NCBI GenBank assembly: GCA_017411435.1
Contig: JAFQQD010000058.1
Location: forward strand, 1-45,469
From: Clostridia bacterium
Lineage (GTDB): Bacteria > Bacillota > Clostridia > UMGS1883
Direction of reading: 5' to 3'
DNA length: 45,469 nt
Under the pieces are notes generated by a model. It had not been told where the DNA came from, made no database searches, and worked only from the letters and a program-made list of their open reading frames with translations. The position numbers and the translations under genes are program-made. Positions 2,100 to 41,157 of this stretch are shown here, piece by piece (positions within the stretch are counted from its first letter, which is position 1; the number at the start of each line of letters is the position of its first letter).

Positions 2100-2365
2100 A
2101 CCACGCCCTCCATTGCTCTCATGCCCTCAGCCTCCGCAGCCTCTCTCTCGAGCCTCTCCTGCTCACGCAACTCGACGAGGGTCTTCTTGTTTTCATTGTA
2201 CCTGGCGTATGCCTCGGAATACTCCTTGAACTCCTCCGGATAGTCCACGCTGAAGACCTTGCCGGTCTTTCCGCAGTGATTCTGTCTTTCGTCGCTCTTG
2301 GCCATTACAGCTCGGAGCTCGTTCTGCTCAATCTCAAGCTGCTTGATTCTGTTTGTTGTTTCCAT
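2096..2365 (-). CDS. Small coiled-coil protein of unknown function
   Basis: 89 residues, strongly charged and helical, with heptad-like Leu/Glu/Arg patterns. No signal peptide and no recognised domain. The start overlaps the 3' end of the reverse transcriptase gene by about 32 bases and its end overlaps the next gene by ATGA, so it is co-transcribed with both the retroelement and the lysis genes. Confidence 0.6.
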   Translation of the reverse strand: METTNRIKQLEIEQNELRAVMAKSDERQNHCGKTGKVFSVDYPEEFKEYSEAYARYNENKKTLVELREQERLEREAAEAEGMRAMEGVV

Positions 2366-3746
2366 AATACTGTGTGTTTAGAATGTTTGTGATCTGTCTG
2401 TGTCTCCTCCTGATCTTACGCTTCCGTATCTCCCTGTCCTTGTGCTTGCGGACGATTGTCGCTTTCAGCAGGTCATCGGAGAAATACAGATAACCGTCCC
2501 AGTACTGCATGATCTGGTCGGATATCCGCTTGCGTATGTTGTAGGACGCAAAGTGTTTCATCAGCCCGAAATAGGAGTTGATTATCGAAACGAATTTCTC
2601 AAGGTGACGCATCTTGCTGAAATGCCCCGAGGCATAGACCGTGTTGTAATAGTGGACCTTGCACTCGAGCTTTGCGACGGTGCGGTTGCTGATATACATT
2701 CTCCCGAACTTGACCACGCCTCCGAGCATCTTGATTCCGTGCTGGTACGGCTGTTCATGGTACTTGTGCGGGTGCATCCTCAGACCATGCTCCGCGATTT
2801 TCAGGCGGGTATGGAAGACAATCCGGTGCAGGTTGTCCTTGTCTCTCGATCCCAAGAAGAAGTCATCGACATAGTCCACGACCTTGACATCAGAGAACTG
2901 GAGAATGAACTTCACGATAGGTGCATTGACGAAGTTCGCGTCTGTCTGGCTCCAGAGGTTCCCGATAGCCAGACAGAGGAACCAGTCGAGGTTGAACGCG
3001 CTCTTGCTCGGCGCGAGATCAGCCCATTCGCATATAGGTGTCTTCCTGATACAGTGTTCGGTCGGCAGGTTGAATGTGGTTATCCTCATGAGGTACAGGA
3101 CCATGTCTTTGTCCGGCTCGTGGTAGTTCTCCATGACGAGCTCCACAAGAGCATCATAGAGCCTCCTCTTGTCTATCGACATGAAGAACGAGGCGATGTC
3201 GAACTTCGCGACGGTGCAGTCCTGAGTATATCCGCGAGAGAGCCTGTATATAGCATCACGGACAGCCATGAGAGCCGCGAGGTTTCCCTTGCCGACCCTG
3301 CATGAATACATTTCGTCCGGTATGCTTCCGCATCGGTTGAACAGGGGCTCAATCCTCATGACGAGCCAAGTCTGTATGACGCGGTCAGGAAAGTCAGCCG
3401 CTATGGCTTCCCTCAAGCACGGATATTTCAGCAGGAAGATAATGGACTTACCAGGCACATACTCGCAATAGTATGCGGCTCTGGCCAAGCGTAAGAGATT
3501 GTCCGCCTCGTTGATTCGGAAGCGGAGAGCGTTAGGAGTGTTGCGTTTGTTCTTATAGCAAACGCGAAGCGCGATACGCAAAGAGAGATAGAACTCCTCA
3601 AAGGTGTAGCAATTATCTCGAAAATCAGTGACGGGGCGCACGGAGTTACTGTTGTACTTGTTGTTGTTGTTCAGTTCACCGTTGTTGCCGTTGAAGATGA
3701 AGGCGTTGTTGCTACTGTACTCGCCAGATTTCGTTTCTGCAGACAT
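2334..3746 (-). CDS. DGR reverse transcriptase, reading frame includes the template repeat
   Basis: A 470-residue frame. Catalytic palm motifs are visible: FDIASFF (Asp183) and YVDD (292-295). The segment IGNLWSQ (261-267) has the SQ signature that separates DGR reverse transcriptases from group II intron enzymes. The enzyme copies the template RNA with errors at adenines and delivers the cDNA to the variable repeats. The frame opens at ATG 3746, and about residues 7-40 are encoded by the template repeat. No methionine follows until about residue 130, so the protein either starts before the template or uses an alternative start such as GTG at codon 37. The C-terminus is very basic. Confidence 0.93.
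   Translation of the reverse strand: MSAETKSGEYSSNNAFIFNGNNGELNNNNKYNSNSVRPVTDFRDNCYTFEEFYLSLRIALRVCYKNKRNTPNALRFRINEADNLLRLARAAYYCEYVPGKSIIFLLKYPCLREAIAADFPDRVIQTWLVMRIEPLFNRCGSIPDEMYSCRVGKGNLAALMAVRDAIYRLSRGYTQDCTVAKFDIASFFMSIDKRRLYDALVELVMENYHEPDKDMVLYLMRITTFNLPTEHCIRKTPICEWADLAPSKSAFNLDWFLCLAIGNLWSQTDANFVNAPIVKFILQFSDVKVVDYVDDFFLGSRDKDNLHRIVFHTRLKIAEHGLRMHPHKYHEQPYQHGIKMLGGVVKFGRMYISNRTVAKLECKVHYYNTVYASGHFSKMRHLEKFVSIINSYFGLMKHFASYNIRKRISDQIMQYWDGYLYFSDDLLKATIVRKHKDREIRKRKIRRRHRQITNILNTQYYGNNKQNQAA
3626..3726 (-). repeat. DGR template repeat (TR)
   Basis: 101 bp matching the two variable repeats at 4277-4377 and 29073-29170. Read on the minus strand it is rich in AAC codons, the usual way a template exposes adenines at codon positions 1 and 2. 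Every mismatch to either variable repeat is at a template adenine (13 for VR1, 7 for VR2). Beyond the conserved GTCACTG at its 3' end, the template continues with ATTTTCGA whereas both variable repeats continue with CTTTA. This is the IMH*/IMH difference that sets the direction of information flow. Confidence 0.95.
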
Positions 3747-3785: not shown

Positions 3786-4196
3786 TTATAGGCTCTCTGC
3801 CGGCTCCCTGTAGGAACCGACACTCTCACCAGCGCGTTGAAAATACTTTCGCCACCTCTTGCCGTGACCTCGTATCTCTCCGATATGCGTATCGCAAATC
3901 GCCTTTTGCTCTATTGACATCAAGCCCAGCTCAAGAGCAAGGCTCGTCAGGTCATCGATAATATCCACCTCCGTAAGACAATCGGTGACATACTCTGCAG
4001 CTTTCGTCTTGTTCATCTGATTGTTTGCCTTGACGATCAAAGCCCTCATTTTATTTGTGGCTTTGATGATGTCGTCGCCGACGATGAATTTATATGCCCT
4101 GTCGAAGTTCTTCACCACGCAACAGAGATAGACGGAGAACGGAAACGCCTCCTTGTAGATGTCAAGCTGCTCGAGCTTATTTTGATTCTTTGCCAT
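3786..4196 (-). CDS. avd: Avd-like DGR accessory protein
   Basis: About 136 residues, all helical, with a basic surface typical of Avd, the four-helix-bundle partner of DGR reverse transcriptases that binds template RNA. It lies between the variable-repeat gene and the template/RT, the usual place for avd. I took the internal methionine (MAKNQNKLEQ, 4196) as the start because the longer frame at 4238 begins inside the DGR hairpin. Assignment rests on position, size and helical character; no single motif is decisive. Confidence 0.75.
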   Translation of the reverse strand: MAKNQNKLEQLDIYKEAFPFSVYLCCVVKNFDRAYKFIVGDDIIKATNKMRALIVKANNQMNKTKAAEYVTDCLTEVDIIDDLTSLALELGLMSIEQKAICDTHIGEIRGHGKRWRKYFQRAGESVGSYREPAESL

Positions 4197-4216
4197 AGTT
4201 GTCTTTGGGGTAAGGC

Positions 4217-4245
4217 GCTCCGTGACTCTGGAGAGCACACGGAGC
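4217..4245. other. DGR hairpin/cruciform downstream of VR1
   Basis: GCTCCGTG (4217-4224) and CACGGAGC (4238-4245) form a perfect 8-bp stem, with an inner CTC/GAG stem closing a 4-base loop. It begins 31 bases beyond the end of VR1. There is no T run in either direction, so it is unlikely to be a terminator. Hairpins just after the IMH are known to be needed for efficient DGR retrohoming in the Bordetella phage system. Confidence 0.75.
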
Positions 4246-4268
4246 TAAACGAAAAACGATTTAACGGT

Positions 4269-5585
4269 TTATAAAGCAGTGACGGGGCGCACGGAGCTAC
4301 TGTCGTACTTGCTGCTGTTGCCCAGACCACCGCTGCTGCCGTTGAAGACGAAGGCGTTGCTGCTACTGCACTCGCCAATAGTCCAAGGATAGTAACCGTG
4401 TCCGTAGCAAGTCGGATATCCCATTTTGACGAGGGTATCATTTACGAGGTCTTCCTTTGTGTCAGCTGCGTTGAGCCTTCGGGTGTTAATCATGTGGTAC
4501 ATTTCCACAGGAGACGGCAAGTGCCAAGCTCCAGCTTCAAGCCCCGTCGTGAATCCCTCAACCGACACGCCGTAAGTGTGAGCCCTGTGAGCCGCCGGAT
4601 AGCGAGGCTCCTGTGCCCCTCTTACGATTGTGCCGAGGCGTGCAGCAAGCAACTCGGTGTACTCCTTTCCGTCGCGAAGCATTGTGCCGTAATTGGACGG
4701 GAATTGCGCCATATGCTCACCGTCAAGGTAGTCCTGATATGTAGCATATTTCGCACGGAGATCGGCGCAGAAATCGAGGTTTTCAAACGAATCCTTATTG
4801 ACGATTGTAGAAGATCCCAGAGGAATGTTCGATGTAGGAACTGTGCCATTCACTGAATAATACTCCACGAACTTCGCCAAGTGGAAGCCAGCAAAGTATG
4901 AGTTTGCGCCGTTCTTTCTGCGGACATACTCCGTCGTGCCGATATAGGCGTATGTGGTCTGATAGTCCACATCATCCTGAGCCGCAAGAACGGCTCCGGT
5001 CACTTCCGTGATCTTTGCCGAAATATACCAGTTGTGAGACAGTATGATTCCGTTGTCTGTGGCGGTTGCGGTCCACTTCCTGTTCGGCTCCTGTGCGGCG
5101 GTTGCAAATGCAGCCGTGAGCTTGTCTGCGATGCTCGCAAGAGTAGAGCCAGCAGCCCAGTTCACGCTTATCGCATCGGTATTGGCTCCGGTCGTAGTCT
5201 TAACCGTGAGCGATCCGGCTGCAGCATTCGCGATGCCCGACAGCATAGCCTCAAACGGATGTCCCCAACGCTCCGAGTACTGCGTGATAGACATACAGAG
5301 GAGCGTCGCTCCAAGTCGCTTGAATACCACTCCGACCGGAACGAGGGTCGCGGCCAGCTGTGCCTTGACCAGAGTACGAGCCTTGACGAATCTGATTCGC
5401 GCCTCCACCTTGTCAAATACGACAAGGTCGCCCTCGTATGCAGACTGCTTTTCCACGAGGCAGTTCACGCCGTCATATACTACAGCCTTGTTTTCATCAA
5501 TGTAGGAAACAGCACTCTCGCTCTTGAGGCGTGCTGCATCAGCGGCATAGTCCGCTTTCTTTGAGTATTTTGTTACCTGTGCCAT
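4269..5585 (-). CDS. DGR-diversified tail fibre/receptor-binding protein (VR1 target)
   Basis: 438 residues. The N-terminal half is a phage-type stalk domain; the C-terminal half has the WHLPSPVEMYHM segment and a closing region typical of C-type-lectin or DUF1566-like folds used as DGR targets. The last 33 residues are encoded by VR1. Template Asn codons have become Ser, Gly or Asp, and Tyr has become Cys at one site. It follows the alanine-rich fibre gene and precedes avd and RT. The natural reading is a tip adhesin whose receptor specificity is retuned by the retroelement. Confidence 0.88.
   Translation of the reverse strand: MAQVTKYSKKADYAADAARLKSESAVSYIDENKAVVYDGVNCLVEKQSAYEGDLVVFDKVEARIRFVKARTLVKAQLAATLVPVGVVFKRLGATLLCMSITQYSERWGHPFEAMLSGIANAAAGSLTVKTTTGANTDAISVNWAAGSTLASIADKLTAAFATAAQEPNRKWTATATDNGIILSHNWYISAKITEVTGAVLAAQDDVDYQTTYAYIGTTEYVRRKNGANSYFAGFHLAKFVEYYSVNGTVPTSNIPLGSSTIVNKDSFENLDFCADLRAKYATYQDYLDGEHMAQFPSNYGTMLRDGKEYTELLAARLGTIVRGAQEPRYPAAHRAHTYGVSVEGFTTGLEAGAWHLPSPVEMYHMINTRRLNAADTKEDLVNDTLVKMGYPTCYGHGYYPWTIGECSSSNAFVFNGSSGGLGNSSKYDSSSVRPVTAL
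4277..4377 (-). repeat. DGR variable repeat 1 (VR1)
   Basis: 101 bp aligned without gaps to the template repeat at 3626-3726, with 13 differences, all at template adenines (12 A-to-G, one A-to-T in coding sense). It forms the 3' end of the fibre gene, followed by the IMH and stop codon. The bias to A-to-G suggests few or recent rounds of mutagenesis, or selection. Confidence 0.95.
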
Positions 5586-5593
5586 GATGACTG

Positions 5594-6211
5594 TTACTTG
5601 TTAGACCAGCTTCCCACAGAGGTGTTGCCGGTTGATTTATAGATTACATCGCCCTCGGTGTCGATGTACAGGCGACCTTTATCCAGAGGAATGTAGGTCG
5701 GAGCACCCGCACCGTGCGTCACGATATTGTTGCGTTTCCAGACATCGAGTTCATCCACGCTCAAACGAGGTATGATGACCTGACCTGTAAGGACCTGAAC
5801 CAAGAGATTTTCAAGGGTTTCAATCCTGCTGTGAGCCTGATTGAGTGCCTCGACAATCACTCTCATTTCCGGACCTCCTTTCTGTGCTGCAGAAGCAAGT
5901 GTCCCTGCTGCAGCTTCGGCGGATTGTCTTGCCGCCTCTGCCGAGTTCGCTGCCGCTGTCTTATGTGCCTGGGCGTTGTTCTCGCTCGTCTTTGCCTCAT
6001 TGGCCGACACGGCTGCGGAGGAAGCCTTTGTCGTGGCTGTCGCCGCCGCCTGCGTTGCCGCTTCAATATCCGCGATGAGCTTGTCAAACTTTGCGTTTAT
6101 CTGGGACGGATTGGCATACTTGACCTTACCGTCAGAACTGTCCTCGACAAGAAAGGCGTCATTTCCCTTGATCTCGTCGATTCTGTCGTAGTCTTTACTG
6201 AATTGTGGCAT
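5594..6211 (-). CDS. Alanine-rich tail fibre stalk protein
   Basis: 205 residues. The N-terminal 35 residues likely anchor to the virion. Residues about 45-105 are an Ala/Ser/Glu/Lys-rich heptad region typical of phage fibre stalks. A further coiled segment (HSRIETLENLLVQVL) and a small C-terminal domain (YIDTEGDVIYKSTGNT) follow, like many Bacteroidales phage fibre ends. It lies nine bases upstream of the DGR-diversified adhesin, so the two probably form one fibre. Confidence 0.75.
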   Translation of the reverse strand: MPQFSKDYDRIDEIKGNDAFLVEDSSDGKVKYANPSQINAKFDKLIADIEAATQAAATATTKASSAAVSANEAKTSENNAQAHKTAAANSAEAARQSAEAAAGTLASAAQKGGPEMRVIVEALNQAHSRIETLENLLVQVLTGQVIIPRLSVDELDVWKRNNIVTHGAGAPTYIPLDKGRLYIDTEGDVIYKSTGNTSVGSWSNK

Positions 6212-23412: not shown

Positions 23413-23852
23413 TATAAACCGTGTACCATTTGATAGGCGAACCGCCAGTTTCGGCAGGTATGATACTCTGCCAGCTTGCCGTGAGGGTCAAGGTCGTAGC
23501 TCGGGAGCTCCTTGATGTCTATGCGTCTTGCATCCTGTATCACTATCTGCGTCCTGCCGTCCCAGTAAACAACCTGTGAGCCCTTTTCGTACTCAAAGGC
23601 GAGGTGCAGGTTATCTTCCCAGCGAAAGGGCGTTGTAACGCCGCAGAGGTAGTAATAACGGGCATAGGACTCAAAGAGCCTCAAGCCGATTGCATTCTTC
23701 GTCTGGACACCCCCAATCTTGAAGTATTGGGAGTATTGTCCGACGAGGCATTTCGCACAGTGAACGGACAGATCAAAGCCCGTCACATATTTCAGCCACA
23801 GGTAACGGAAATTCTCTGTGGTCTTAAAGAGCTCAAGCGTTGGAAACTGCAT
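23412..23852 (-). CDS. Unknown protein following the ParB-methyltransferase
   Basis: 146 residues from ATG 23852 (MQFPTLELFK), overlapping the ParB-methyltransferase gene by 20 bases; earlier starts are possible. Aromatic-rich (YLWLKYV, YARYYYLCG) with a CAKC pair near residue 30, followed by FEYEKGSQVVYWDGR. It is the last gene of the SAM/ParB module before the late operon and probably serves the same process. Family not recognised. Confidence 0.55.
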   Translation of the reverse strand: MQFPTLELFKTTENFRYLWLKYVTGFDLSVHCAKCLVGQYSQYFKIGGVQTKNAIGLRLFESYARYYYLCGVTTPFRWEDNLHLAFEYEKGSQVVYWDGRTQIVIQDARRIDIKELPSYDLDPHGKLAEYHTCRNWRFAYQMVHGL

Positions 23853-25236
23853 AGCGGTACGATTTTTCGATTGTCGATGATAGTCCATATCGGAAGCCGT
23901 TCGGCAGAGGCAGGTTCCACTCGAAACGAAGTCCGGCCACCACATCCTCGATAGGGACGCTCCGGTCCTTTACCGCGCAAATCTCGAATGCCTGCGAATT
24001 GAAGTGTATCTCGTAACGGGAACTCATGAGCTTCGCGATGTTCTCGATGTCCTGCCTGGTGTGATACTTCTGGTAGAACCATTCGCCGTTTCGGAAGATT
24101 CCACTGAAATGATTTTCGTCATAGAAGCGAATCAGGCTGTCTTCCGTCTTGATGACCTTTGTGTTGCTCCTCTTTTCCTCCGCCTCAAAGTTCCTTCCGG
24201 AAATGAATATCTGACCGCCCATACGGCAAAGCCCGTAAACGGTGTGAATGACCGACTTCTCAGCCTCCATTGAATCCACCGAGTTCAGGACGCTGTCGCA
24301 TATCACGACATCATACAGCCCCTGTGTCTCGATTTCCCTTGCGATCCGTCGGAAGTCGTCGGCATTGCCCTTGATGTCGATGTCGTTTGAGCCAGACTTC
24401 ATATGGTAAGGATCAACCGATGTGACCTTGAATCCCATTTTGACAAGCTTCTTTGAGTAGTCCTTCTGGCCAGCCCCGAAATCAAGAATCCTCAAGGTGC
24501 GGGGTTTGTCCTTGAGGTAGGGGAGCACATATTTCTCAAAAAGGAAGCTCTTGTTTGAATTCGCCTCTCCCTTGCGTCCGTCACGCAGGCGTTTCTTCTG
24601 CGCAAACCTCTGCTGATATGTCTTCTTCTCAAGAAGATCATAGCTGAAAACTCCATACTGTTTGGAAAGATAATTCACAGCCTTTGCCGCCTTGTCATCC
24701 GGAAGAACGAGCAGGTCGATATCCATTCCGGCCACTTTTGCAGCATACGCATACGCCGCACTCACGCGCACGGTGCCGTCCGGTGTGGCGATAGGACAGC
24801 CGAACTCTCCATATTTCAGGAGTAGCTTCGAGAGAACATTCACCCAGGCGTTCATCTTTCCGAAGTTCAGGACCTCGATGTCGCTATTCTTTACGCGCTG
24901 GAATTCTCCGACCTTCAAATCTCCCTTGATGCGGATGCTCGGAGCTTTCGGAGACACCTCGATTTCGCAGGCGTTGTGAAGCTGGTTGAAACGCACTTCG
25001 TCTGCGTAATTCAGATTTTTCAGAACATAAGCCGGAGTTTCCTCGTAGCCGAGTGCCGTCATCGCCTTTGTCCTCTGGTGACCTGCAATCAGGGTGCGGT
25101 TCTCGATGCGGACGATCACGGGCTTTATGATACCCAGCTCGCGGATGCTCTGCTTGAGCATTTCAAAGCTCTCGTCAGAAAGATACCGAGGGTTGTACTC
25201 GGCACCTTTCAAATCCTTAATCTTCACTGTCTGCAT
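23833..25236 (-). CDS. ParB-like domain fused to SAM-dependent methyltransferase
   Basis: 467 residues from ATG 25236. Residues about 1-120 form a ParB/sulfiredoxin-like domain with EYNPR and the GHQR motif near residue 55. A linker with its own alpha/beta character follows. From about residue 245 there is a class I methyltransferase domain with the SAM-binding motif LDFGAGQKDYSK and an acidic end of strand 2 (VTSVDPY). No NPPY/DPPY catalytic motif of N6/N4 DNA methyltransferases is visible, so the acceptor is uncertain. It follows SAM synthetase and a second ParB-like gene in one operon, pointing to a SAM-consuming DNA (or other) modification. Confidence 0.8.
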   Translation of the reverse strand: MQTVKIKDLKGAEYNPRYLSDESFEMLKQSIRELGIIKPVIVRIENRTLIAGHQRTKAMTALGYEETPAYVLKNLNYADEVRFNQLHNACEIEVSPKAPSIRIKGDLKVGEFQRVKNSDIEVLNFGKMNAWVNVLSKLLLKYGEFGCPIATPDGTVRVSAAYAYAAKVAGMDIDLLVLPDDKAAKAVNYLSKQYGVFSYDLLEKKTYQQRFAQKKRLRDGRKGEANSNKSFLFEKYVLPYLKDKPRTLRILDFGAGQKDYSKKLVKMGFKVTSVDPYHMKSGSNDIDIKGNADDFRRIAREIETQGLYDVVICDSVLNSVDSMEAEKSVIHTVYGLCRMGGQIFISGRNFEAEEKRSNTKVIKTEDSLIRFYDENHFSGIFRNGEWFYQKYHTRQDIENIAKLMSSRYEIHFNSQAFEICAVKDRSVPIEDVVAGLRFEWNLPLPNGFRYGLSSTIEKSYRYAVSNA

Positions 25237-25978
25237 AGCTATCCTCCTCACTGTTTTCGTCACCGTCGAAATAGCCACCTATGAGCTTCAGCACGAAGCC
25301 ATAGCTTGAGCCTGTCTTCTCGACATGACGGTCAAAGATACTCTGCAGACCTTCAAGCTCCGCCTCGGACATCTGAACCTTGTTTCCGCCGAACTGGAGA
25401 AGAAGACGCTGCGATGTCGTGCTTCCCTTTTCGGGTGAGTCGCTGGAGCTGCTTGACGAGCTGCTTTCGCCCTGTGCCTGATCTGCCATTTCCCAGACAT
25501 TGATACCCATATCCCCGAGTGCAAGGTCAGTCCATTCGTTTGCGAGCTTGTCCCAGTCGAACTTTCCGGCGTGGCCGTTGTCCTTCGCTGCAACCCTCTT
25601 GAGCGTGGCCACATCCGTACCCATAGGGAAGATGACGCTCGGGACATACTGGTGGTCGAGCTCCTCGGATGCGTTGTGCCTCATGTTTCCGCCGATAGCG
25701 ATACAAGCCTCGCGACCCTCAAGCGGATAGATGATACAGCCTCTTGCAAGGAACATTATCGGGTCTTCCTGTATCGAGGTCATGAGCCTGTCAAGGTCGT
25801 CCCTCGTCCATTCACGAGGATTTGACGGCACGCCGTCGAGCTGTCCGTCATTCCTCTCGATAGAGCCGGTCGGTATCAGTCCGTAATAGACCTTTTCGCC
25901 CTCCCATTCCTGGGGGCTGAGCTTGAAATCCTGCATCCACTGTGGAAGATCAGGATAATTGAGTTTTTCTTTTGCCAT
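25217..25978 (-). CDS. ParB-like protein with low-complexity linker
   Basis: 253 residues. The N-terminal 170 residues look like a ParB-type domain: NPREWTRDDLDRLMTSIQEDP, IYPLEGREACIAIGGNMR at the GxxR position, and AAKDNGHAGKFDWDKLANEW, the K-DN-G-FD-L-A pattern of phage ParB proteins. A Ser-rich linker and an acidic C-terminal domain follow. It overlaps SAM synthetase by one base and the ParB-methyltransferase by about 20, so the three are translated together. Confidence 0.75.
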   Translation of the reverse strand: MAKEKLNYPDLPQWMQDFKLSPQEWEGEKVYYGLIPTGSIERNDGQLDGVPSNPREWTRDDLDRLMTSIQEDPIMFLARGCIIYPLEGREACIAIGGNMRHNASEELDHQYVPSVIFPMGTDVATLKRVAAKDNGHAGKFDWDKLANEWTDLALGDMGINVWEMADQAQGESSSSSSSSDSPEKGSTTSQRLLLQFGGNKVQMSEAELEGLQSIFDRHVEKTGSSYGFVLKLIGGYFDGDENSEEDSYADSED

Positions 25979-27087
25979 TATATTCCCTCCATGTTAAGTA
26001 TTTCCCAAGGTCGGGTGCTGTCTCCAAACAGCCCCCTTTTGCACAGGTCTGCATAGATCGGCATGTCGAGCCCGTAACGATCACGGAGCAACTGCACGCC
26101 AAGTTCAAGTTCCCCTTGATTGAGCAGCTGTCCTCTTGATCCCGTTACCACATAATGGACTTCCTTTCTCCCGATGCAACAGCCAAGCTGAACCTCCACC
26201 CTTTCGCCGTGCAGGCGTGCCTGATGCATTGCCATTTCACGGGCAAACAGGTTCAGGGCAAGGTCAGCCTTGCTGCCGTCCTTTGTCCAAGGTGAGCCTC
26301 CACCGATTCGGCAGTTTCCGCCGTAGAAGTCCACAGCGAGTTTGCGTCCGGTTGTTCCGCAGTCTGCAATCGGACCGTGCTTGACAAATGAACCCGTGCC
26401 GTTTATAATGAGCTGCGGCTGCTTTGACTTCCAAGGGATCCAGCTGCCTTCTATTAGCTCGGAAACTTGTTTGAAAGCGACGAATTCATATAGATCCCTT
26501 GCAGCTTTTTCACTCTTTACGGGCGCGGCCACAATTATCTGCCGAAGCGCAGACTTTCCTGCAGCCGTCTCATACATCACCTGAACTTTGATATCCAGAC
26601 CGCAATCAAGTAGTCCTGATTTTGCCGCTCGGTATATGGTCTGTCCGAGGTAACGCGCAAAGCTGAAATCCTCCGGCAACTTATTGCTGATCGTCGGCTC
26701 TGCCATTCCGAAGAAGATACCCTGATCTCCCCAGCCGTCGTTATCGACACCCTGTGCGATGTCCGGAGACTGCTCCGTTATGAGTGTCCTGACAGAGAGG
26801 GCGTCCGCAAAGATCGTGTTCTCCGGACCCCACTTCTGGGCGTACTCCTTCGTGTAGCCGACTTCTCTCACGGCATCCATGACGAAACCTGCGATTTCCT
26901 GCTGGTCGAACTTTACTGTTGATGTCACTTCGCCTGCAAGGGTGACATCGTAGCCCTTTATCTGGACCTCTACGGCATACCGCACATTCGGGTCCCGTTC
27001 CAGATACCTGTCAAGCAGGTACTCGCTTATGTAGTCCGCCACCTTGTCTGGGTGGCCAACCGATACAAATTCTGAAATGCTTATCAT
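25978..27087 (-). CDS. metK: Phage-encoded S-adenosylmethionine synthetase
   Basis: 369 residues from ATG 27087 (MISISEF); an upstream in-frame ATG at 27138 is possible. It would make SAM from methionine and ATP. The family's active-site elements are present: GHPDK (11-15), the methionine-loop QSPDIAQGV, GDQGIFFG, a Lys in the GLDIKVQV strand, TTGRK, and the phosphate-binding TKDGSK with a following Asp. The canonical HGGG is here RIGGG. Only about 30% of positions look shared with cellular MetK by eye, so it is divergent but apparently catalytically intact. Confidence 0.88.
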   Translation of the reverse strand: MISISEFVSVGHPDKVADYISEYLLDRYLERDPNVRYAVEVQIKGYDVTLAGEVTSTVKFDQQEIAGFVMDAVREVGYTKEYAQKWGPENTIFADALSVRTLITEQSPDIAQGVDNDGWGDQGIFFGMAEPTISNKLPEDFSFARYLGQTIYRAAKSGLLDCGLDIKVQVMYETAAGKSALRQIIVAAPVKSEKAARDLYEFVAFKQVSELIEGSWIPWKSKQPQLIINGTGSFVKHGPIADCGTTGRKLAVDFYGGNCRIGGGSPWTKDGSKADLALNLFAREMAMHQARLHGERVEVQLGCCIGRKEVHYVVTGSRGQLLNQGELELGVQLLRDRYGLDMPIYADLCKRGLFGDSTRPWEILNMEGI

Positions 27088-27136
27088 CTTGATACTCTTT
27101 TGTGTTGCGTGCGACAAAGATAAATAAAATGCTTTC

Positions 27137-27148
27137 ATTGTACGCACT
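27137..27148 (-). promoter_or_regulatory. Repeated element AGTGCGTACAAT upstream of metK
   Basis: Second copy of the element at 11680 and 36723. The last bases overlap the upstream candidate start ATG 27138. A TATCTTTG (-7-like) motif lies 20 bases downstream on the minus strand, but no matching TTTG is found at the -33 position. Confidence 0.4.
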
Positions 27149-27526: not shown

Positions 27527-27949
27527 CTAAAACGGTAAGTCATCATCTGGTGGCGGAGTTTCTACAGGCGCGGCTGGTTCAGCCGGAGGTGCCGGCGGTG
27601 CGGGCTGTTGCTGCGAAAGCTGCCGAGCTCCTTGGAGATAGCCACGCTCCTCCTGTCCTCTGGTCGAGGAGATCAGGTTTATCTCGCTTACCATGACGCT
27701 CAAGGAAACACGCACTTCGCCGGAGCGTGTCGTGTATGTCCCTGCCGAGAGGTTGCCCCTCACGAATACCGATGTGCCTTTGGTCAGGTACTGCAGGAGG
27801 TTTCCGCCGTTGCCCCTCCACAGGGCGCTGACCCATACCGTCGTGTCCCTCTCTGTGTGGGCTATGTCGAAACTCACATAGTCCTTTCCGTTGATCTGTT
27901 TAACCTGGGCGTTCGCCCCGAGGTTTCCGATTATGTCTGTCTTTAGCAT
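27527..27949 (-). CDS. ssb: Single-stranded DNA-binding protein
   Basis: 140 residues from ATG 27949 (MLKTDIIGNLG). The OB fold is evident (VKQINGKDYVSFDIAHTER, TTVWVSALW, YLTKGTSVFVRGNLS), followed by a Gln/Pro-rich linker and the acidic tip DDDLPF that recruits replication partners. The larger open frame extends upstream without SSB character. It belongs to the early recombination and replication genes. Confidence 0.92.
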   Translation of the reverse strand: MLKTDIIGNLGANAQVKQINGKDYVSFDIAHTERDTTVWVSALWRGNGGNLLQYLTKGTSVFVRGNLSAGTYTTRSGEVRVSLSVMVSEINLISSTRGQEERGYLQGARQLSQQQPAPPAPPAEPAAPVETPPPDDDLPF

Positions 27950-27959
27950 ACTTTGTTGG

Positions 27960-28217
27960 TTATTTGATTTGAAACTTTGCGCCGCTGTCCGGTCCGCCCT
28001 GTATTGATACGCTCCTGATTGCTGTGTAATAATGCACGGAAGCATACGGCTCCCCATCGAAACTGTCTGCGCTGCAGATACCGTTCTGGGTTGGTCGCCC
28101 TCCCAGATCAACATCTTTCCAATAGCGACCGTTCTGATCTTTGTAAACTGGGCGACCCCAGCTGTCGCAACCCTCATAAGTGAGCGTGATGTCTTTTACT
28201 CTTGTATTCTTTTCCAT
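27960..28217 (-). CDS. Small unknown phage protein
   Basis: 85 residues, mostly beta-like, with Gly/Asp-rich loops (CDSWGRPVYKDQNGRYWKDV). It lies between ssb and a short helical protein with near-zero gaps. No family recognised. Confidence 0.55.
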   Translation of the reverse strand: MEKNTRVKDITLTYEGCDSWGRPVYKDQNGRYWKDVDLGGRPTQNGICSADSFDGEPYASVHYYTAIRSVSIQGGPDSGAKFQIK

Positions 28218-28219
28218 TG

Positions 28220-28411
28220 TCAAAATAGCGTTGGGTTGAGCACCGTGTCGATGTAGTTCCGGACATTTCGCTCCATTTTCTTGCTCTCTCCAAGAACTTT
28301 GGGGTCTCTTGTCCTGAAATACTCCTGCTGTTTGTCAAGCATCTGCAGAACACTCTTGCAGAAAGACTTGTGTACCGCTTCCGGACTCGGGCTGTTGTGT
28401 GTAGTATTCAT
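28220..28411 (-). CDS. Small helical protein, unknown
   Basis: 63 residues, helical and basic, overlapping the upstream ASCH-like gene by four bases (ATGA). No recognised domain. Confidence 0.5.
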   Translation of the reverse strand: MNTTHNSPSPEAVHKSFCKSVLQMLDKQQEYFRTRDPKVLGESKKMERNVRNYIDTVLNPTLF

Positions 28412-28992
28412 CGTCTGATCAGTTTGAATTCATAAACATAGACATACGGGTTTTCCTCCCATGTCCCTTTGCCGCACACTTTCTCGATAAGCTTCCGGAA
28501 AGCGTCCCGAGGCGTGGCGAACCACCAGCTCCTCTGCTTCATCGTACCATGTCGGGTGATGTAAGCCTGACCGTAAAAGCCGAACGGCGCGACAGGTCTT
28601 TCAGGCTCGAATTCTATTCCCTCTCTGGCGCAATCCTCGTCCGTGATGTCCTGCAGCTGCTCGACCCTCACTCCCGTGATGCGGATTCGGTGAGGCATGA
28701 GCTCCGGATCGACGAACATCTTGTTTGAAAATCCTGCGTGCTGTGCGAGGTCTTTCGGAGCATCCTCCCTCCAGTTCAGAATTCGGCTGTATGGCTGTGC
28801 AACCGCCAGTATTTCTCCGATCTTCCAAGGTGAAGCCTCCACAAGGTCGCGCTTCCTTGCCTCGAATGTGTGCCGATTTACGCCGAACTGGTGCAGAATC
28901 TTGGACGGGATCACTCGGCGAGTTAGGTCTTTCGTCTTCGCGATTACCGCATCTGTCAGTCCGACTTCATCATTAAACATTGCCTTTTTCAT
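28408..28992 (-). CDS. ASCH-domain-like phage protein
   Basis: 194 residues. The opening MKKAMFNDEVGLTDAVIAKT followed by KDLTRRVI, a central KIGEILAVAQPY strand and RIRITGVRVEQLQDITDED match the ASCH/PUA-like fold seen in phage early proteins (RNA or modified-base binding in other families). It follows the VR2-bearing gene and its DGR hairpin. Role unknown. Confidence 0.7.
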   Translation of the reverse strand: MKKAMFNDEVGLTDAVIAKTKDLTRRVIPSKILHQFGVNRHTFEARKRDLVEASPWKIGEILAVAQPYSRILNWREDAPKDLAQHAGFSNKMFVDPELMPHRIRITGVRVEQLQDITDEDCAREGIEFEPERPVAPFGFYGQAYITRHGTMKQRSWWFATPRDAFRKLIEKVCGKGTWEENPYVYVYEFKLIRR

Positions 28993-29009: not shown

Positions 29010-29043
29010 CCTCCGGCAGACTCTGTCGAGCGACTGCCGGAGG
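29010..29043. other. DGR hairpin/cruciform downstream of VR2
   Basis: CCTCCGGCAG (29010-29019) and CTGCCGGAGG (29034-29043) form a perfect 10-bp stem, with an inner CTC/GAG closing a 4-base loop. It lies 29 bases beyond VR2. The stem sequence differs from the VR1 hairpin while the spacing and inner CTC-loop-GAG are kept, as expected if structure matters rather than sequence. Confidence 0.75.
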
Positions 29044-29052
29044 AACGGGGAA

Positions 29053-29520
29053 CTATTTAACGAATTGTAAAGCAGTGACGGGGCGCACGGAGTTACTGTG
29101 GTACTTGTTGTCGTAGTTCAGTACACCGTTGCTGCCGTTGAAGATGAAGGCGAGGTTGCTACTGTACTCGGGGTCTGGGTCCTCCTCGCAGGTCCAAATC
29201 CAGTTGTTATCCAGCCTTTCTCCGCCGATTAGCTCAAGGGCTTCATCGAGACCCTGAAACCTTGCGTCGTAGATGTCAAGACATTCGCGGCGAGTAGGAC
29301 ATCGGAATCCCTGCTCGTCAAAATCTTTCAAGCCGGCTGCCGCTTCCTGTGCCTCCTTGAACTCAAACCGTCCGGCAAGCTGATTCTTGTGAATCTTGAT
29401 TCCGGTGGTCTCGCTTGTCTGAATGATCACGAGCTGTGCGCTCTGTGGGTTCTCGACTTTCTTCCAGTCCTCAACTGCTACCAGTGTCTGGTCAGCAGGA
29501 TTTTCAATAAAAATTTTCAT
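29053..29520 (-). CDS. Second DGR target protein (VR2), small, in the early region
   Basis: 155 residues from ATG 29520 (MKIFIENPAD). Residues about 75-155 resemble a DUF1566/C-lectin-like domain: GFRCPTRRECLDIYD and NNWIWTCEED, ending in the VR-encoded segment (EYSSNLAFIFNG to VRPVTALQFVK). No signal peptide or membrane segment. It lies in the early operon next to an ASCH-like and a PcfJ-like gene, far from virion genes, so a cytoplasmic or non-virion variable protein is likely. Confidence 0.85.
   Translation of the reverse strand: MKIFIENPADQTLVAVEDWKKVENPQSAQLVIIQTSETTGIKIHKNQLAGRFEFKEAQEAAAGLKDFDEQGFRCPTRRECLDIYDARFQGLDEALELIGGERLDNNWIWTCEEDPDPEYSSNLAFIFNGSNGVLNYDNKYHSNSVRPVTALQFVK
29073..29170 (-). 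repeat. DGR variable repeat 2 (VR2)
   Basis: 98 bp aligned without gaps to the template; all 7 differences are at template adenines (changes to C, G and T all occur). It is followed by the same GTCACTGCTTTA as VR1, and similarity to VR1 (but not TR) continues for about 18 further bases. Confidence 0.95.
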
Positions 29521-29550
29521 CATGATTTGTTGATTAAATGGGTTAATGAA

Positions 29551-30924
29551 TTAAATTGCCATACTGTGTTTGCTTATGTTCCGAATGTGTTTCATGTTGG
29601 CATTCATGAGCCTTATGATTGTGTCGTGCTGAGGGCTCATCGTATTGTTCCTGCCTCGGCTCTGTAAGATCGTAAAGCTGGTCAGGCTGATTTCAAGCGT
29701 CTCAAGCCTCTCTCCGGTTGAAATCCTGTGAGCCGTCATGAGCAAGCTGTTGATGCTCTTGTAGTATTCACGCTGAAATATGCAATGGCTCATAGCCTTT
29801 CCCTCGGCATACACCGACTGCACGGTCGGCAGGCAGGTTATCTCTATGTCGCTGATCCTGAAGCATAGACCGATGTACGGTGCGATACGCTTCTGGTACT
29901 TCGGCTCGTAAGCCTCTATCTCCTGCAGCTGCTTTTCCGCAGCCTTTCTGTCTCTTATCCTGCGTACCCTCGCGGTCATGCGACCATGCACTCTCTCGAG
30001 GTCTTCCGGACAGAGGTAGTGAGGACTTCTGGTGTCAAGCCCCAGCTCAATGAGGTCGTCGATGTAGTCAAGCCACATCCGGAGGTCGGGGATAGTGTAG
30101 CCGTGACGGAGTGCAATCTTGATCGAATCGGCGTACTTCGGGAGCTTCCTGTGACAGTCACTTTTCATGAAGTGCCAGAATATGTCCCTTTGCCCGATCT
30201 TCCAGAGCGTCTCGTAATACGGGGTCTGCATCCACTTCGAGAGAGCGTCCGTCACCGAACATCCAGACCGCTTATAAAGTGATTTGACCTTTCTTGCATC
30301 AATGCCGTTTGAACGCAGATATTTCGCAAGTTTTATCTTCGGGAATATCCAGTTATCAGAGACATCGAAAAGGTCACCATAACTGAAATAACCGCCGCTT
30401 CTGGCATTGTGCGTCTGGATTCCGTAACCGGCTGTGTAGTCCCAGTGCATGAAGTTCCACCCTCTGCTGAACGGTCTCGATGTTATGATCTCACGCCCGT
30501 TCTCAAGAATCCAGTTCTGGTAAATCTCACTCATGCTGTAATCGGTCGGGCCGGACTTGTGGTTGCTCCGGAAGACCTCGAATGTGCGGACGACCTGAAT
30601 CCCGTCGAAGATGTCGAACACGGACAGGTAGTAGCAGGATGTCGCTCTTGTGGAGCTGTCCTTTCGCAGCTGCTTGACCTTGCAGACCTTTCCGCATGCC
30701 GGACATACATAATCCTCCGCCGACATCACGAGCCAGCTGTCGCACGGCTCTCGGTGTCCGCAGCACTGGCACCAGATTTCCTGATTGTTGCCCCTGTGCT
30801 GCCAGTAATAAGCCTCCGCGGCGAAGTGGTTGGAGTAGGCGTACTCTGATATTTCGTCCCAGATCGGCGGAAGTATATTCGCGTAATCGACGAACCGTCT
30901 TTCTATATTGCTTCTTGGTTTCAT
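29551..30924 (-). CDS. PcfJ-like protein
   Basis: 457 residues. Two CxxC pairs (CQCCG and CPACG) near residues 52-80 suggest a zinc ribbon. The C-terminal region with AMSHCIF, LLMTAHRISTGERLETLEISL and QSRGRNN matches the PcfJ-like family (first noted in conjugative plasmid pCF10, widespread in phages). Function not established. The start overlaps the upstream gene by four bases. Confidence 0.8.
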   Translation of the reverse strand: MKPRSNIERRFVDYANILPPIWDEISEYAYSNHFAAEAYYWQHRGNNQEIWCQCCGHREPCDSWLVMSAEDYVCPACGKVCKVKQLRKDSSTRATSCYYLSVFDIFDGIQVVRTFEVFRSNHKSGPTDYSMSEIYQNWILENGREIITSRPFSRGWNFMHWDYTAGYGIQTHNARSGGYFSYGDLFDVSDNWIFPKIKLAKYLRSNGIDARKVKSLYKRSGCSVTDALSKWMQTPYYETLWKIGQRDIFWHFMKSDCHRKLPKYADSIKIALRHGYTIPDLRMWLDYIDDLIELGLDTRSPHYLCPEDLERVHGRMTARVRRIRDRKAAEKQLQEIEAYEPKYQKRIAPYIGLCFRISDIEITCLPTVQSVYAEGKAMSHCIFQREYYKSINSLLMTAHRISTGERLETLEISLTSFTILQSRGRNNTMSPQHDTIIRLMNANMKHIRNISKHSMAI

Positions 30925-32018: not shown

Positions 32019-32750
32019 CTATTCCTCCTCAAAACTGAATAATGTCGCCTCTGCCTCCAGCTCCTTGCGTTTCTTTTCAAGCTGCTCCTGCTTTTTCTGC
32101 TCGGCTTGTTTACGGCGTTTTTCAGCCCTTTCAGCCTCGTCCTTGATGCGTTGCTCCGCTTTGCGCCTGTAATCGGCTTCAACGGCTTGTTTTGCCTCGA
32201 TTTCAAGGCGTTTCTTGTCTTCCTCCGTCAGTTCCGGATTGGTGACAACCACATCGTATCGTGGAGTGTTCGTAGGAGCCGTCAGACCCTCGTCGTAGTA
32301 ATGCAGAGCCATTCCGTAGATTTCCGGATCGGTCCACACTTGCCGCTTCCTGTTCTTGGAGACCTCGCTGGCGATGTAGTCGCCGCATCCCTTGATGGAC
32401 TTGTCTATGCCTCCGTCTTTCTCGATCTTTGCTGCATACTTCTCGGCAAAAGCCTTGTCTTTGCTGGCAGTTTCATCGAGGTACTTTTTGAGTTTTGCTT
32501 CGTATGCGTTCATATCCTTGTCATTGATTGTTGGTACATAATAGTATCGGTTGATTGTTCTTCCTCGCCTGATGTGTCCGGCTGCTTCAAGCCTCTTCAG
32601 GGCTTCCTGCCTGTCGCTTCGGCTCATGCCTGGGGTGTTCGTTCCCAGCTCCAGCTCGTCGCAGATGACGGGGTAAAGCTTCGCGGACTCCTTGAACAGG
32701 CATACCAGCCGGATCGCGTCGAGGACTTTCTTGTCGAGGTCGTTCATCAT
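32019..32750 (-). CDS. PcfK-like protein with N-terminal winged-helix region
   Basis: 243 residues. Residues 1-75 read as a winged-helix domain (SDRQEALKRLEAAGHIRRGRTINRYYYV). Residues about 90-200 match the PcfK-like pattern: CGDYIASEVSKN, TDPEIYGMALHYYDEG, VVVTNPELTEEDKKR. A Lys/Glu-rich tail of about 45 residues follows. PcfK-like and PcfJ-like genes often co-occur, as here. Confidence 0.7.
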   Translation of the reverse strand: MMNDLDKKVLDAIRLVCLFKESAKLYPVICDELELGTNTPGMSRSDRQEALKRLEAAGHIRRGRTINRYYYVPTINDKDMNAYEAKLKKYLDETASKDKAFAEKYAAKIEKDGGIDKSIKGCGDYIASEVSKNRKRQVWTDPEIYGMALHYYDEGLTAPTNTPRYDVVVTNPELTEEDKKRLEIEAKQAVEADYRRKAEQRIKDEAERAEKRRKQAEQKKQEQLEKKRKELEAEATLFSFEEE

Positions 32751-34522: not shown

Positions 34523-35269
34523 TTATGAATTTTGAGTTTGTTGTGATCTTCTTACTCCGTTAGCCATTTTCTCAAGCTCAAGGAATACATCGCCGGACTC
34601 CCACTCAAAGGCGTTCCAGAGTGAGGTGCGGGCGTTGGCATACGCCTCCTTGTCGGCTGGGTTGTACCCTGCGAGCCATACGACCTCCTTGCTGTGGGCT
34701 CCGGTCTGGAGGGCGTGCATCGTTACACGCGTCTTTGCCGCCTGCTGGGGCTGTTGCTGCTGTGAACCCTGCTGCCTGCCGGCTGATCGTCCGGTCTGTC
34801 CGCGCTGCTCCGCCTCCTCCTGCAGGGTGTACTTCGTGCGGTCTTTCTCGAAATAGACATCCGCCGCGATACCCAGATTCTTGCAGGCTACCGACATCGC
34901 GTCCGTCATAGCCATTTTCCAAGCCTCGTCGTTCTGCTCCGTGCCGACGCCCTTTCCCACGAGCTTGTTTCCTCCGACGCCGACAACCGGCTTGCTCCAT
35001 TCTCCGGAGCTGGTCTTGTAGTACAGGTGTACCTTGACATAGGCTCCGACCTCTCCTGCAGAAGTCTCGTTCGTCCAGCGTTCCACCTCCTCGATGTACC
35101 AGCCCTCGCCGCATGGTCCGAACTTCTCCGTCAGTACCTTGATTCGCCATACCGGATTGATGTCGGTATAGCCCTGAAGCTTGCCGCCCTTGATAGGCGT
35201 CTTCGCCTCTGCCGGACACGCCCTCCAATACTCGTAGAGTTCCAGATTTTTCTTCTTCTGATCTTCCAT
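34523..35269 (-). CDS. Rad52/Sak-type single-strand annealing protein (DUF1071-like)
   Basis: 248 residues from ATG 35269. Residues about 20-150 have the annealing-protein pattern: GYTDINPVWRIKVLTEKFG, GEVGAYVKVHLYY, then VGTEQNDEAWKMAMTDAM and NLGIAADVYFEKD. A Gln-rich linker (160-185) precedes a C-terminal helical domain. It probably anneals single-stranded phage DNA coated by the phage SSB. Confidence 0.75.
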   Translation of the reverse strand: MEDQKKKNLELYEYWRACPAEAKTPIKGGKLQGYTDINPVWRIKVLTEKFGPCGEGWYIEEVERWTNETSAGEVGAYVKVHLYYKTSSGEWSKPVVGVGGNKLVGKGVGTEQNDEAWKMAMTDAMSVACKNLGIAADVYFEKDRTKYTLQEEAEQRGQTGRSAGRQQGSQQQQPQQAAKTRVTMHALQTGAHSKEVVWLAGYNPADKEAYANARTSLWNAFEWESGDVFLELEKMANGVRRSQQTQNS

Positions 35270-35280
35270 TGTCACTGTGT

Positions 35281-38475: not shown

Positions 38476-39531
38476 ATGGATTTCAAAGACTCAATCAAAC
38501 AGATCAGCGAGCGAATTGAAAAGCTCTGCGACAACCTCCAGACGGAGGAAGCAACAAAGAACGCACTGATAATGCCATTCCTGACCGCACTCGGTTATGA
38601 TGTCTTTAACCCTCTGGAGGTAGTTCCGGAAATGACCTGCGATATCGGGACAAAGAAAGGCGAGAAGATTGACTATGCGATAATGAAGGACGGTGAGCCT
38701 ATTATCTTGATCGAGTGCAAGCATTGGAAAGAGGACCTGAATCTGCATGATAATCAGCTGCTCCGCTATTTCAATGTCAGCAAGGCAAAATTCGGAGTTC
38801 TGACCAACGGTATTGTGTACCGCTTCTATACCGACCTCGAGGATAAGAATAAAATGGACGCGAAGCCTTTTCTTGAAGTTGATTTGAGACAGCCGAAGGA
38901 TATACAGGTGGAGGAGCTCAAGAAATTTCACAAGTCATATTTCAATGTCGATGCAATCTTGAGCACAGCTTCCGAACTCAAGTACATGGGGGAACTGAAA
39001 GCAATAATTTCGCAGGAGTTTGCAAACCCTTCCGAGGATTTCGTTAAGCTGTTCGGCAGACAGGTTTACAGTGGCCAGTTCAATAAGCGTGTAGTGGAAC
39101 AGTTCACGCTCCTCACAAAACGAGCCATCAGTTCATACATTTCCGACCAGATTTCAGACCGCCTCAATGCTGCAATGATGAAGACAGAGGAGACGGAAGA
39201 TCCGAAGCCTGTTGCGGAGGCTGTCGAGGATGAGCCGGCAATAGTCACAACGCCTCTGGAAATGGAGGGCTTCTATGTCGTTAAGTCAATCCTCCGCGAT
39301 CTTATTCCTGCAGACCGCATTACATTCAAAGATACACGCGACTACTTCCGCGTGACAATCGACGGAAAGGTTACGAAAGGCGTGTGCCTGCTTCGTTTCA
39401 GCAACGAGGACAACCTGCGAGTGGGCTTCTATGACGAGAACTTCAAGGAGACGCGATACAAACTGTCTTCCGTAGATGATTTGTACCAGTTCGCGGACAA
39501 AATAAAGGAAGCAGCCTCAAAGTACATTTAA
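38476..39531 (+). CDS. Orphan HsdR-N-like (PD-(D/E)XK) protein
   Basis: 351 residues. The N-terminal 130 residues match the type I restriction HsdR N-terminal nuclease fold: TKNALIMPFLTALGYDVFNP, DYAIMKDGEPIILIECKHW (the D...ExK active site) and FGVLTNGIVYRFYT. Helicase motor domains are absent. Residues about 150-220 are helical; the last 90 residues form a small beta-rich domain. Expressed with the repressor in the lysogen, it is a candidate defence or superinfection-exclusion gene. Confidence 0.75.
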   Translation: MDFKDSIKQISERIEKLCDNLQTEEATKNALIMPFLTALGYDVFNPLEVVPEMTCDIGTKKGEKIDYAIMKDGEPIILIECKHWKEDLNLHDNQLLRYFNVSKAKFGVLTNGIVYRFYTDLEDKNKMDAKPFLEVDLRQPKDIQVEELKKFHKSYFNVDAILSTASELKYMGELKAIISQEFANPSEDFVKLFGRQVYSGQFNKRVVEQFTLLTKRAISSYISDQISDRLNAAMMKTEETEDPKPVAEAVEDEPAIVTTPLEMEGFYVVKSILRDLIPADRITFKDTRDYFRVTIDGKVTKGVCLLRFSNEDNLRVGFYDENFKETRYKLSSVDDLYQFADKIKEAASKYI

Positions 39532-40002: not shown

Positions 40003-41157
40003 TCAAAGCCCCTCGATCTGCGGAATCTTCGAGACAGCCTCCTGCTTCTTCTTATCCATGAGCTTCGCGTAAATCTGCGTCGTCTGGATCTCCTTATGAC
40101 CCAGAAGCTTCTGGACGGTGTATATGTCAGCCCCCAAGTCCAGCATCAGCACCGCAAAGGTATGTCTCGCACAATGGAAGGAAATCTCCTTCATCACACC
40201 CGCACGCAACGCCCACATACGCAGCTCCGTGTTCATATTCGAGTTGTATCGGAAATTCCGGAAGACAAGCTCCTCCGGCTTGCCCCGCTGTCCCATGTAG
40301 CGGACAGCCTGGGCGTTGATGTCAAGATACTCCTGCGACTTGGTCTTCTTCTGCCGGAAGATGACCCTCGTGAACTCTCCCTGCTGCACTACATTCTGCC
40401 AGCGGAGCCTCATGATGTCGCACTTCCTCAATCCCGTGAGGCAGGAGAACAGGAACGCCTCCTTGAGAGCCGGATAACGGCACGGGGCGGCGGTCATCGC
40501 ACGCAGCTCCTCAATGGTCAGGTACTCGCGCTCGGTCTCCTCCTGTGGAAAGCCCGAAATGCCGTCCATTGGATTGATCGGGATGATATGCTTGCTGTGG
40601 GCGTGGTTCAGGCAGGCTCGGAGCTTGTTGAAGTATGAGACCTTGCTGTTCTGGGACAGAGGCTCGCGGACATTCAGCTCTCCGTCCTTCGTCTTCCTGT
40701 TCTGACATACCGCCCTCTTGTCAAGATAATGCTTGAACGCCTCGACCCATTCGGGCGTGACATCGCGAAAGGTCATCTTCCTGTTCGTGATGAAAATCTC
40801 GAGGTGCTGCAGGCATGAATACCAGTTGCCCCAGTTGCCCCTCGATTCTTTTGTGCCGAGCCTCTCTTCGCACATGTACCGGAAGTAGTCCAGAAAGATA
40901 GTGTCCTCCTTGTAAATCTTCTCGAACCCGAAGCGGTTGTTCTGGAGCTCGACGACCCTCTTGCTCCGGACAGCCTCGGCGAGTGCGAGTGTCTGCCTGT
41001 TCTTCTCCCTGTCCTCCCTTGTCTTCTCCGGAATCAGGTACATCTTGAGGAATTCATACGAACGGACGCCGTTGATGTAGACATCCAGAAAAAGCGACTC
41101 CCTGCCGCTTGCCATCCTGCGACGGCGAAGCCTTATCGGCTCTTTTGCTCTTGCCAT
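40003..41157 (-). CDS. int: Tyrosine integrase
   Basis: 384 residues. Arm-binding and SAM-like core-binding domains are followed by a catalytic domain with all six signature residues: Arg244 (TGLRK), Lys273 (QKKTKSQE), His328 and Arg331 (HCARH), His354 (LLGHKE) and the nucleophile Tyr363 (TQIYAK). It catalyses integration at the mnmE 3' end. The gene ends away from attR, with 143 bases of repeats between its start and the att core. Confidence 0.95.
   Translation of the reverse strand: MARAKEPIRLRRRRMASGRESLFLDVYINGVRSYEFLKMYLIPEKTREDREKNRQTLALAEAVRSKRVVELQNNRFGFEKIYKEDTIFLDYFRYMCEERLGTKESRGNWGNWYSCLQHLEIFITNRKMTFRDVTPEWVEAFKHYLDKRAVCQNRKTKDGELNVREPLSQNSKVSYFNKLRACLNHAHSKHIIPINPMDGISGFPQEETEREYLTIEELRAMTAAPCRYPALKEAFLFSCLTGLRKCDIMRLRWQNVVQQGEFTRVIFRQKKTKSQEYLDINAQAVRYMGQRGKPEELVFRNFRYNSNMNTELRMWALRAGVMKEISFHCARHTFAVLMLDLGADIYTVQKLLGHKEIQTTQIYAKLMDKKKQEAVSKIPQIEGL

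Follow-up and report, generated by a model that had tools for sequence, protein, structure and literature searches.

A second variable repeat, about 25 kb from its reverse transcriptase and among replication genes, in the DGR of a Clostridia prophage

Phage DGRs are known as a means of changing the tail. A second DGR target lying beside replication genes across divergent phages raises the question of recognition inside the host cell: which intracellular feature would change as fast as a phage receptor? The question is posed here by a prophage in the window, i.e., the whole stretch of 45,469 nucleotides that was analysed, in which the integrase gene occupies 40003-41157 and the right end carries host-type mnmE and carbamoyl-phosphate synthase genes. 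The prophage DGR consists of a single set of reverse transcriptase (RT), template repeat (TR), Avd-like gene and a tail-type target bearing the first variable repeat (VR1), all on the minus strand, while a second variable repeat (VR2) forms the 3' end of a small gene, whose product we call P0001 (Table 1).

Table 1. Features of the prophage DGR, of its two target sites and of the genes around the second target (window coordinates)
Feature	Position	Strand	Basis or remark
DGR reverse transcriptase ORF	2334..3746	-	470 aa including TR-encoded N-terminus; RVT_1 E 1.9e-9, phrog_1423 E 5.9e-52, YVDDF read in translation
TR (template repeat)	about 3622..3723	-	repeat search; in frame within RT reading frame
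Avd-like accessory protein	3786..4238	-	150 aa; 23S_rRNA_IVP E 8.9e-5 and bAvd E 1.8e-4, both under gathering score
Hairpin 3' of VR1	4217..4245	-	8-bp outer stem; DNA fold z -2.74; hairpin scans
IMH-like 3' element at VR1	4255..4276	-	18/22 identical to 29051-29072
VR1	4273..4374	-	14/14 mismatches to TR at template A
VR1 target gene, probable tail adhesin	4269..5585	-	438 aa; adjoins tail-fibre-like gene 5594-6211; weak Lcl_C E 0.011 at 351-435
Single-strand DNA-binding protein	27527..28177	-	PF00436 E 8.7e-12
Downstream neighbour of VR2 gene, phrog_874 (unknown function)	28408..28992	-	E 2.1e-27
Hairpin 3' of VR2	29010..29043	-	10-bp outer stem, short inner stem, 4-nt loop; DNA fold z -2.56; hairpin scans
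IMH-like 3' element at VR2, common to VR1	29051..29072	-	at and past end of TR homology; 18/22 identical to 4255-4276
VR2 target gene (P0001), stand-alone C-type-lectin-like (Lcl_C/DUF1566-like)	29053..29523	-	156 aa; ORF with VR2 at 3' end
VR2, second variable repeat	29069..29170	-	8/8 mismatches to TR at template A
PcfJ-like protein, upstream neighbour of VR2 gene	29551..30924	-	PF14284 E 2.1e-27
PcfK-like protein	32019..32750	-	PF14058 E 1.2e-15
Exonuclease, recombination module	34523..35275	-	phrog_7838 E 1.9e-32

The RVT_1 and phrog_1423 matches of the RT, with the TR close by, mark the element as a DGR. Note that the TR, translated in frame, is the N-terminus of the RT ORF (3622-3746, EYSSNNAFIFNG...); the RT alignment of a related phage in IMG/VR (G401) likewise extends across the TR-encoded stretch, the TR of MT835523 lies inside the RT ORF, and two further relatives (G432 and G433) have a stop codon in the corresponding stretch.

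A repeat search recovered three minus-strand copies, namely the TR, VR1 and VR2, and when every A of the TR was masked and up to three mismatches were allowed, the pattern matched exactly three places of the 2.0-Mb assembly, where its reversed form, used as control, had no match; no fourth copy was found. Mismatches to the TR are confined to template adenines in both variable repeats, a pattern with a hypergeometric probability of 3.9e-8 for VR1 and 1.1e-4 for VR2 (35 A in the 102 bases of the TR). The earlier note, made from the letters alone, had counted seven VR2 differences between 29073 and 29170, all at template adenines that had become C, G and T, at about 25 kb from the only RT, which would thus serve two targets. 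All of this was borne out, and the full repeat adds an eighth substitution, giving three A to C, three A to T and two A to G. The eighth lies at the 3' boundary and is common to VR1, and it may belong to a difference between target site and template and not to mutagenesis. Only four substituted sites are common to VR1 and VR2 (of 14 and 8, respectively), which is no excess over chance (P 0.40). The share of A to G also differs between the two repeats, with 12 of the 14 substitutions in VR1 (4273-4374) versus 2 of the 8 in VR2 (29069-29170; Fisher P 0.008).

The likeness of the two target sites extends past the TR, since the IMH-like elements at their 3' ends agree at a level equalled in only 2 of 200,000 random window pairs, at a place where the TR itself differs. 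This extension is what would be expected if the VR1/VR2 repeat were a plain gene duplication or conversion rather than a product of DGR homing; the A-only differences of each VR from the TR, largely at different sites, contradict such an origin, as does the placement of the two target domains in separate clades (see below), and we consider it hardly credible. Within about 30 bases downstream of both VRs lies a hairpin with a two-part stem, and the two hairpins have unlike stem sequences while pairing is retained. In the accessible text on the phage BPP-1 (Guo et al., PMC3240598), a hairpin after the VR is required for efficient homing, and the structure of the stem matters while its sequence does not. 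The order of parts seen here, with a VR followed by an IMH and a DNA hairpin, resembles the BPP-1 target site, in which the hairpin needed for homing is GC-rich, but the phage DGRs described in that text have a 7-10 bp stem and a 4-nt GRNA loop, whereas the stems found here are in two parts and their 4-nt loops read TCCA and GACA, the loop at VR1 lying outside the GRNA consensus. A lone hairpin has little meaning in this prophage, because the window holds 17 hairpins with a stem of at least 8 as against 6-12 in shuffles; the evidence lies rather in the pair at both VRs and in the recurrence among relatives. Indeed, in related records a stem of at least 7 was found downstream of 15 of the 16 remote VRs (counting distinct phages only, 12 of 13) and of 23 of the 35 near ones, as against 606 of 10,200 random 90-base windows. 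Neither stem is followed by a run of T, and for this reason a reading of the two hairpins as terminators was put aside. Neither the shared 3' element nor the hairpins had been noticed in the earlier note. Altogether, VR2 carries a whole target site (VR, IMH-like 3' sequence and hairpin, the last with a putative function), and, as judged from the sequence, it is a complete second target of the single DGR of the prophage, an observation stronger than first stated.

The second target lies outside the structural module, with the PcfJ-like, phrog_874 and single-strand DNA-binding protein genes as neighbours, and it is co-directional with the replication and recombination genes that surround it, a gene order and strand from which it may be taken as an early gene. 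Two neighbours had been named beforehand: the PcfJ-like protein was recognised as such (PF14284, E 2e-27), whereas the ASCH-like one, which we took to be 28408-28992, matches phrog_874 and no Pfam ASCH model at E<=1. Further downstream, at 23833-27147, a ParB-methyltransferase fusion lies beside another ParB-like gene and an S-adenosylmethionine synthetase carried by the phage, as if for DNA modification; the fusion is about 4 kb downstream. In the lysogeny region, a plus-strand gene (38476-39531) encodes an HsdR N-terminal domain (phrog_4225 endonuclease). The PADLOC defence models had no match to P0001 or its close neighbours, and the window therefore gives no positive sign of counter-defence; nor did the searches bring up a homolog of P0001 whose function is known.

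With respect to the protein itself, P0001 matches Pfam Lcl_C (PF07603) at E 2.1e-4 and 22 bits, under the gathering score of 34.9, and among four relatives two scored 18 and 24.9 bits and two had no match, so that P0001 has a fold-level likeness to Lcl_C only and is not counted as a member of PF07603. An AF2 model built from a 55-row alignment, which was used instead of one from a 5-row alignment (pLDDT 44.8), reached a pLDDT of 71.3, with the VR half under 60; given this weak half, the geometry of the VR hairpin is left out of our claims. The best PDB match of the model, over most of the protein, is the C-terminal domain of Legionella Lcl (8q4e; Z 8.1, 3.1 A over 114 residues), but with 19% identity, and the next row is a C-type lectin (Z 5.1); a C-type-lectin fold is thus predicted for P0001. 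The viral model library gave as its best match an uncharacterised siphovirus protein of 107 aa (40% identity). Lcl is a surface protein. The earlier note had seen no virion features, signal peptide or membrane segment in P0001. In agreement with this, a hydropathy scan (no dedicated predictor) found no signal-peptide-like or membrane segment in any of 11 early targets, and domain searches found no recognised tail or virion-attachment domain in P0001.

Single-sequence searches gave no close relative of P0001 in the viral-contig, genome-contig or phage sets, nor did a two-row alignment among genome contigs, and among 391 genomes of the class only its own genome carried it. Homologs with 37-53% identity were found in four further phages (G401, G432, G433 and G434 of IMG/VR), those beyond G401 by an alignment-based scan in which a conserved core was required, and the proteins of all five phages measure 152-157 aa. 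G401 (38.6 kb, with direct terminal repeats) is largely collinear with the prophage and has an RT 58% identical to its RT, and its P0001 homolog (53% identity) is located 28 kb from that RT, between the RecT and YqaJ recombination genes. The other three homologs are 37-44% identical to P0001; in G434, DUF2800 and DNA polymerase A (PolA) are neighbours, and in G433 a VapE-like gene, an antisense ORF standing in PolA's place in the ORF list. The RTs of G432 and G433 are 26-28% identical to that of the prophage, i.e., at the level of protein identity the VR2 gene of these two phages is better conserved than the RT that mutates it.

The comparison of VR2 with its own TR covers G401, G432 and G433, as no RT was found in the G434 fragment. 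At non-A positions VR2 agrees with its own TR at 64/65, 59/61 and 62/62 sites, respectively (97-100%), and fits the TRs of the other phages more poorly. Over remote VRs as a whole, identity to the own TR at these positions is 96-100%, against 69% on average for other TRs; the test is independent for these three phages, which were found by protein likeness, and partly built in for the sister family described below, whose remote VRs were found by TR matching. Because VR2 fits the own TR in each case, homing into VR2 would have recurred in each lineage. It had been proposed that a VR2 constant in all relatives while VR1 varies would mark a fossil target; in the three phages with a template VR2 tracks its own TR, and it is not the fossil of one event. 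No close pair exists within the P0001 family in the sets searched, which leaves intraspecies variation of VR2 without a direct view. Among 31 IMG/VR records, picked for a similar RT and for length out of 80 loci retained from 421 confirmed relatives (G410 and G411 being the same phage in the stretch compared), 10 have a remote VR, 17 a near VR only and 4 none, proportions that do not stand for a phage-wide frequency.

Variation of a remote VR between close phages can be seen in a widespread sister family, of which the Bacuni phages are the type: in their genomes, a remote DUF1566-type target adjoins DNA polymerase A, and over 795 bases of the remote gene F1 and F2 differ at 16 positions, every one of them at 563-638, within the VR. 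With six proteins as queries, IMG/VR gave 190 confirmed relatives, and of the 80 that were kept, 47 have replication markers as neighbours, 2 have tail and RT genes, and 31 have none of the markers. PolA, where present (44 loci), is always upstream on the same strand (44/44), with a median gap of 400 bases. The VR differs in 58 of 77 close pairs and is identical in 19 (a hand count from the listing); as an example, one near-identical pair has 16/115 differences in the VR and 0/1438 outside, while in 4 of the 58 (L290 versus L285-L288) the VR differs less than the rest. Over 22 pairs chosen from the 77, every one with VR differences, pooled pN/pS was 0.32 outside the VR and 3.8 inside, suggesting that the non-VR part of these genes is under purifying selection. 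In L280, L281, L282 and L284, the early-target VR is unchanged while the flanks differ, and perhaps their DGR has fallen silent. Elsewhere among the relatives, the remote target of G416 lies outside a clear replication module. L157 (IMG/VR 3300031998_000217, 9994-10383) has as remote DGR target a stand-alone Lcl_C protein of 129 aa above the Pfam cut-off, with 22/22 mismatches at A and a phosphoribosyltransferase gene nearby, and in L315 (Bacteroides phage BS-TP1, record 77864-80613) a DUF1566 target stands near a second gene annotated as reverse transcriptase family (product: tail protein), so that this phage may have two DGRs.

These comparisons bear on whether VR2 could be a mere side effect of DGR homing, passive or decaying, that serves no selected function. 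The smaller number of substitutions in VR2 than in VR1 and the invariant group among the sister loci would suit such an origin, yet it must be set against the tracking of the own TR in each phage, the persistence of the hairpin downstream of 12 of the 13 distinct remote VRs, the low pN/pS of the sister genes outside the VR in the chosen pairs, and the retention of the gene while the RT falls to 26-28% identity, and we hold it to be very improbable.

A 42-row tree of the lectin domain from which the VR had been left out (built by a quick method, with many weak forks, and omitting F2, F4, G411, G406, G420, the remote row of G416 and the near row of G419) groups the five P0001-family targets in one clade (SH-aLRT 100) and eight Bacuni-type early targets in a second (SH-aLRT 94), with the 29 near targets elsewhere. 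The remote or near label changes twice on this tree versus 11.2 times in shuffles, and none of 500 shuffles was as low. Since the two clades stand apart from the tail targets, the early target is an old separate protein and not a recent copy of the tail target. Early targets thus appear to form old lineages linked to replication modules, in most relatives with recognisable neighbours. The conservation of a second target in related phages suggests that P0001 probably meets a changing partner inside the host cell, and we find an intracellular partner a plausible interpretation of VR2.

We propose that one DGR (RT, Avd-like protein and TR) homes mutagenised cDNA into two sites. The first is VR1 in the tail adhesin; the second, reached in trans across some 25 kb, is VR2, which closes the 3' end of a small gene of the replication and recombination module. 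P0001 would be made together with the replication genes, as a presumably cytoplasmic protein with a single domain of predicted C-type-lectin fold, and its diversified beta-hairpin would bind a host-internal partner. Most likely P0001 would serve in counter-defence or host takeover, its partner varying among hosts, so that the same DGR activity would allow the phage to enter new hosts and re-tune P0001 to the host interior. This is the best explanation we can offer, to which we give about an even chance, and intracellular counter-defence is within it a best guess. Against it stand the 31 of 80 sister loci with no marker gene and the 2 beside tail and RT genes, the invariant VRs of L280, L281, L282 and L284, and the setting of the remote target in G416. 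To our knowledge, moreover, lectin-fold DGR targets with a known ligand bind extracellular ligands.

Second in our ranking, and rather unlikely, is that P0001 is a component of the virion or surface, such as a second receptor- or mucus-binding protein, whose gene lies in the replication region by chance and with which both targets would tune adsorption. P0001 is indeed of the same fold class as the tail targets; in the accessible texts, other two-target phage DGRs include two probable virion proteins (PMC10743442, which states the role of the two targets as unclear, and PMC11792537, with Faecalibacterium prophages that have two variable regions), and the authors of the Bacuni study read both targets as adhesion proteins (PMC8143477), a reading that also counts against our explanation. 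However, a virion or surface role fits poorly with early targets free of signal-peptide-like and membrane segments, with the absence of a recognised virion-attachment domain, with the shared orientation, across divergent phages, of these genes and PolA, primase, RecT or YqaJ, and with an early-target lineage apart from the tail targets. In third place, and less likely still, P0001 would act on phage proteins, either the phage's own replication and recombination machinery or proteins of rival phages during superinfection competition. The persistent linkage to PolA, primase, RecT and YqaJ would agree with this, and hypervariability would suit the binding of many rival variants, but a diversifying contact with an own conserved polymerase makes little sense, and the neighbours vary by family (PcfJ, RecT, PolA).

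Returning to an intracellular binder of host proteins as the preferred reading, we advance tentatively, and with less confidence than the explanation for this prophage, that phages of the gut and rumen maintain an old lineage of dedicated intracellular binders, hypermutated by DGRs and travelling with replication genes, an antibody-like repertoire against variable host immune or replication proteins that is drawn from the same template as the tail. If true, entry and intracellular takeover would be re-tuned together. The P0001 family, a small and near-bare lectin-like domain, should be easy to express and usable as bait, and as the sister family occurs in isolated phages (Bacuni, Bacteroides uniformis), the question is directly testable there.

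Among published systems, the closest in the accessible text is the Quimbyvirus DGR (Benler et al. 2021, PMC8008677), which pairs a tail target with a distal target that lies near defence genes and is read as non-structural. Both cases have one DGR with two C-lectin targets, the second distal and outside the structural module, and adenine-specific variation, and a Bacteroidetes-linked phage is a further point of likeness. By description, the second target of Quimbyvirus differs in lying in an opposite-strand, defence-related island, and its RT is frameshifted, whereas in the prophage the VR2 gene is co-directional with replication genes, has no PADLOC match nearby and is served by an RT in one frame. 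The accessible part of PMC12629997 (Nature 2025) reports four species of gut prophage, likened here by description, in which a second VR lies distally, close to counter-defence genes, and in that of PMC8144416 secondary targets are part of the method. The remote second VR of Bacuni and its F1/F2 differences are described in PMC8143477, in whose accessible text the word 'early' is absent. Bacuni F1, F2 and F4 resemble the prophage in having two DUF1566-type targets, one of them remote, next to DNA polymerase A in the replication region, a TR close to the RT, hairpins after both VRs, and remote VRs that differ between F1 and F2; they differ in that the remote target has 224 aa with an extra N-terminal segment, is about 25% identical to P0001 and belongs to the other clade. 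In the literature searched (subscription papers and supplements being outside its scope), no account of the linkage to replication modules or of the P0001 target family was found. Phage DGRs whose second target is distal and probably non-structural, together with the idea that this target serves phage-host conflict, are thus already in print, as far as the accessible texts of PMC8008677 and PMC12629997 go, and what is new here is the P0001 target family, the paired anatomy of the target sites, the replication-module setting and the old early-target lineages.
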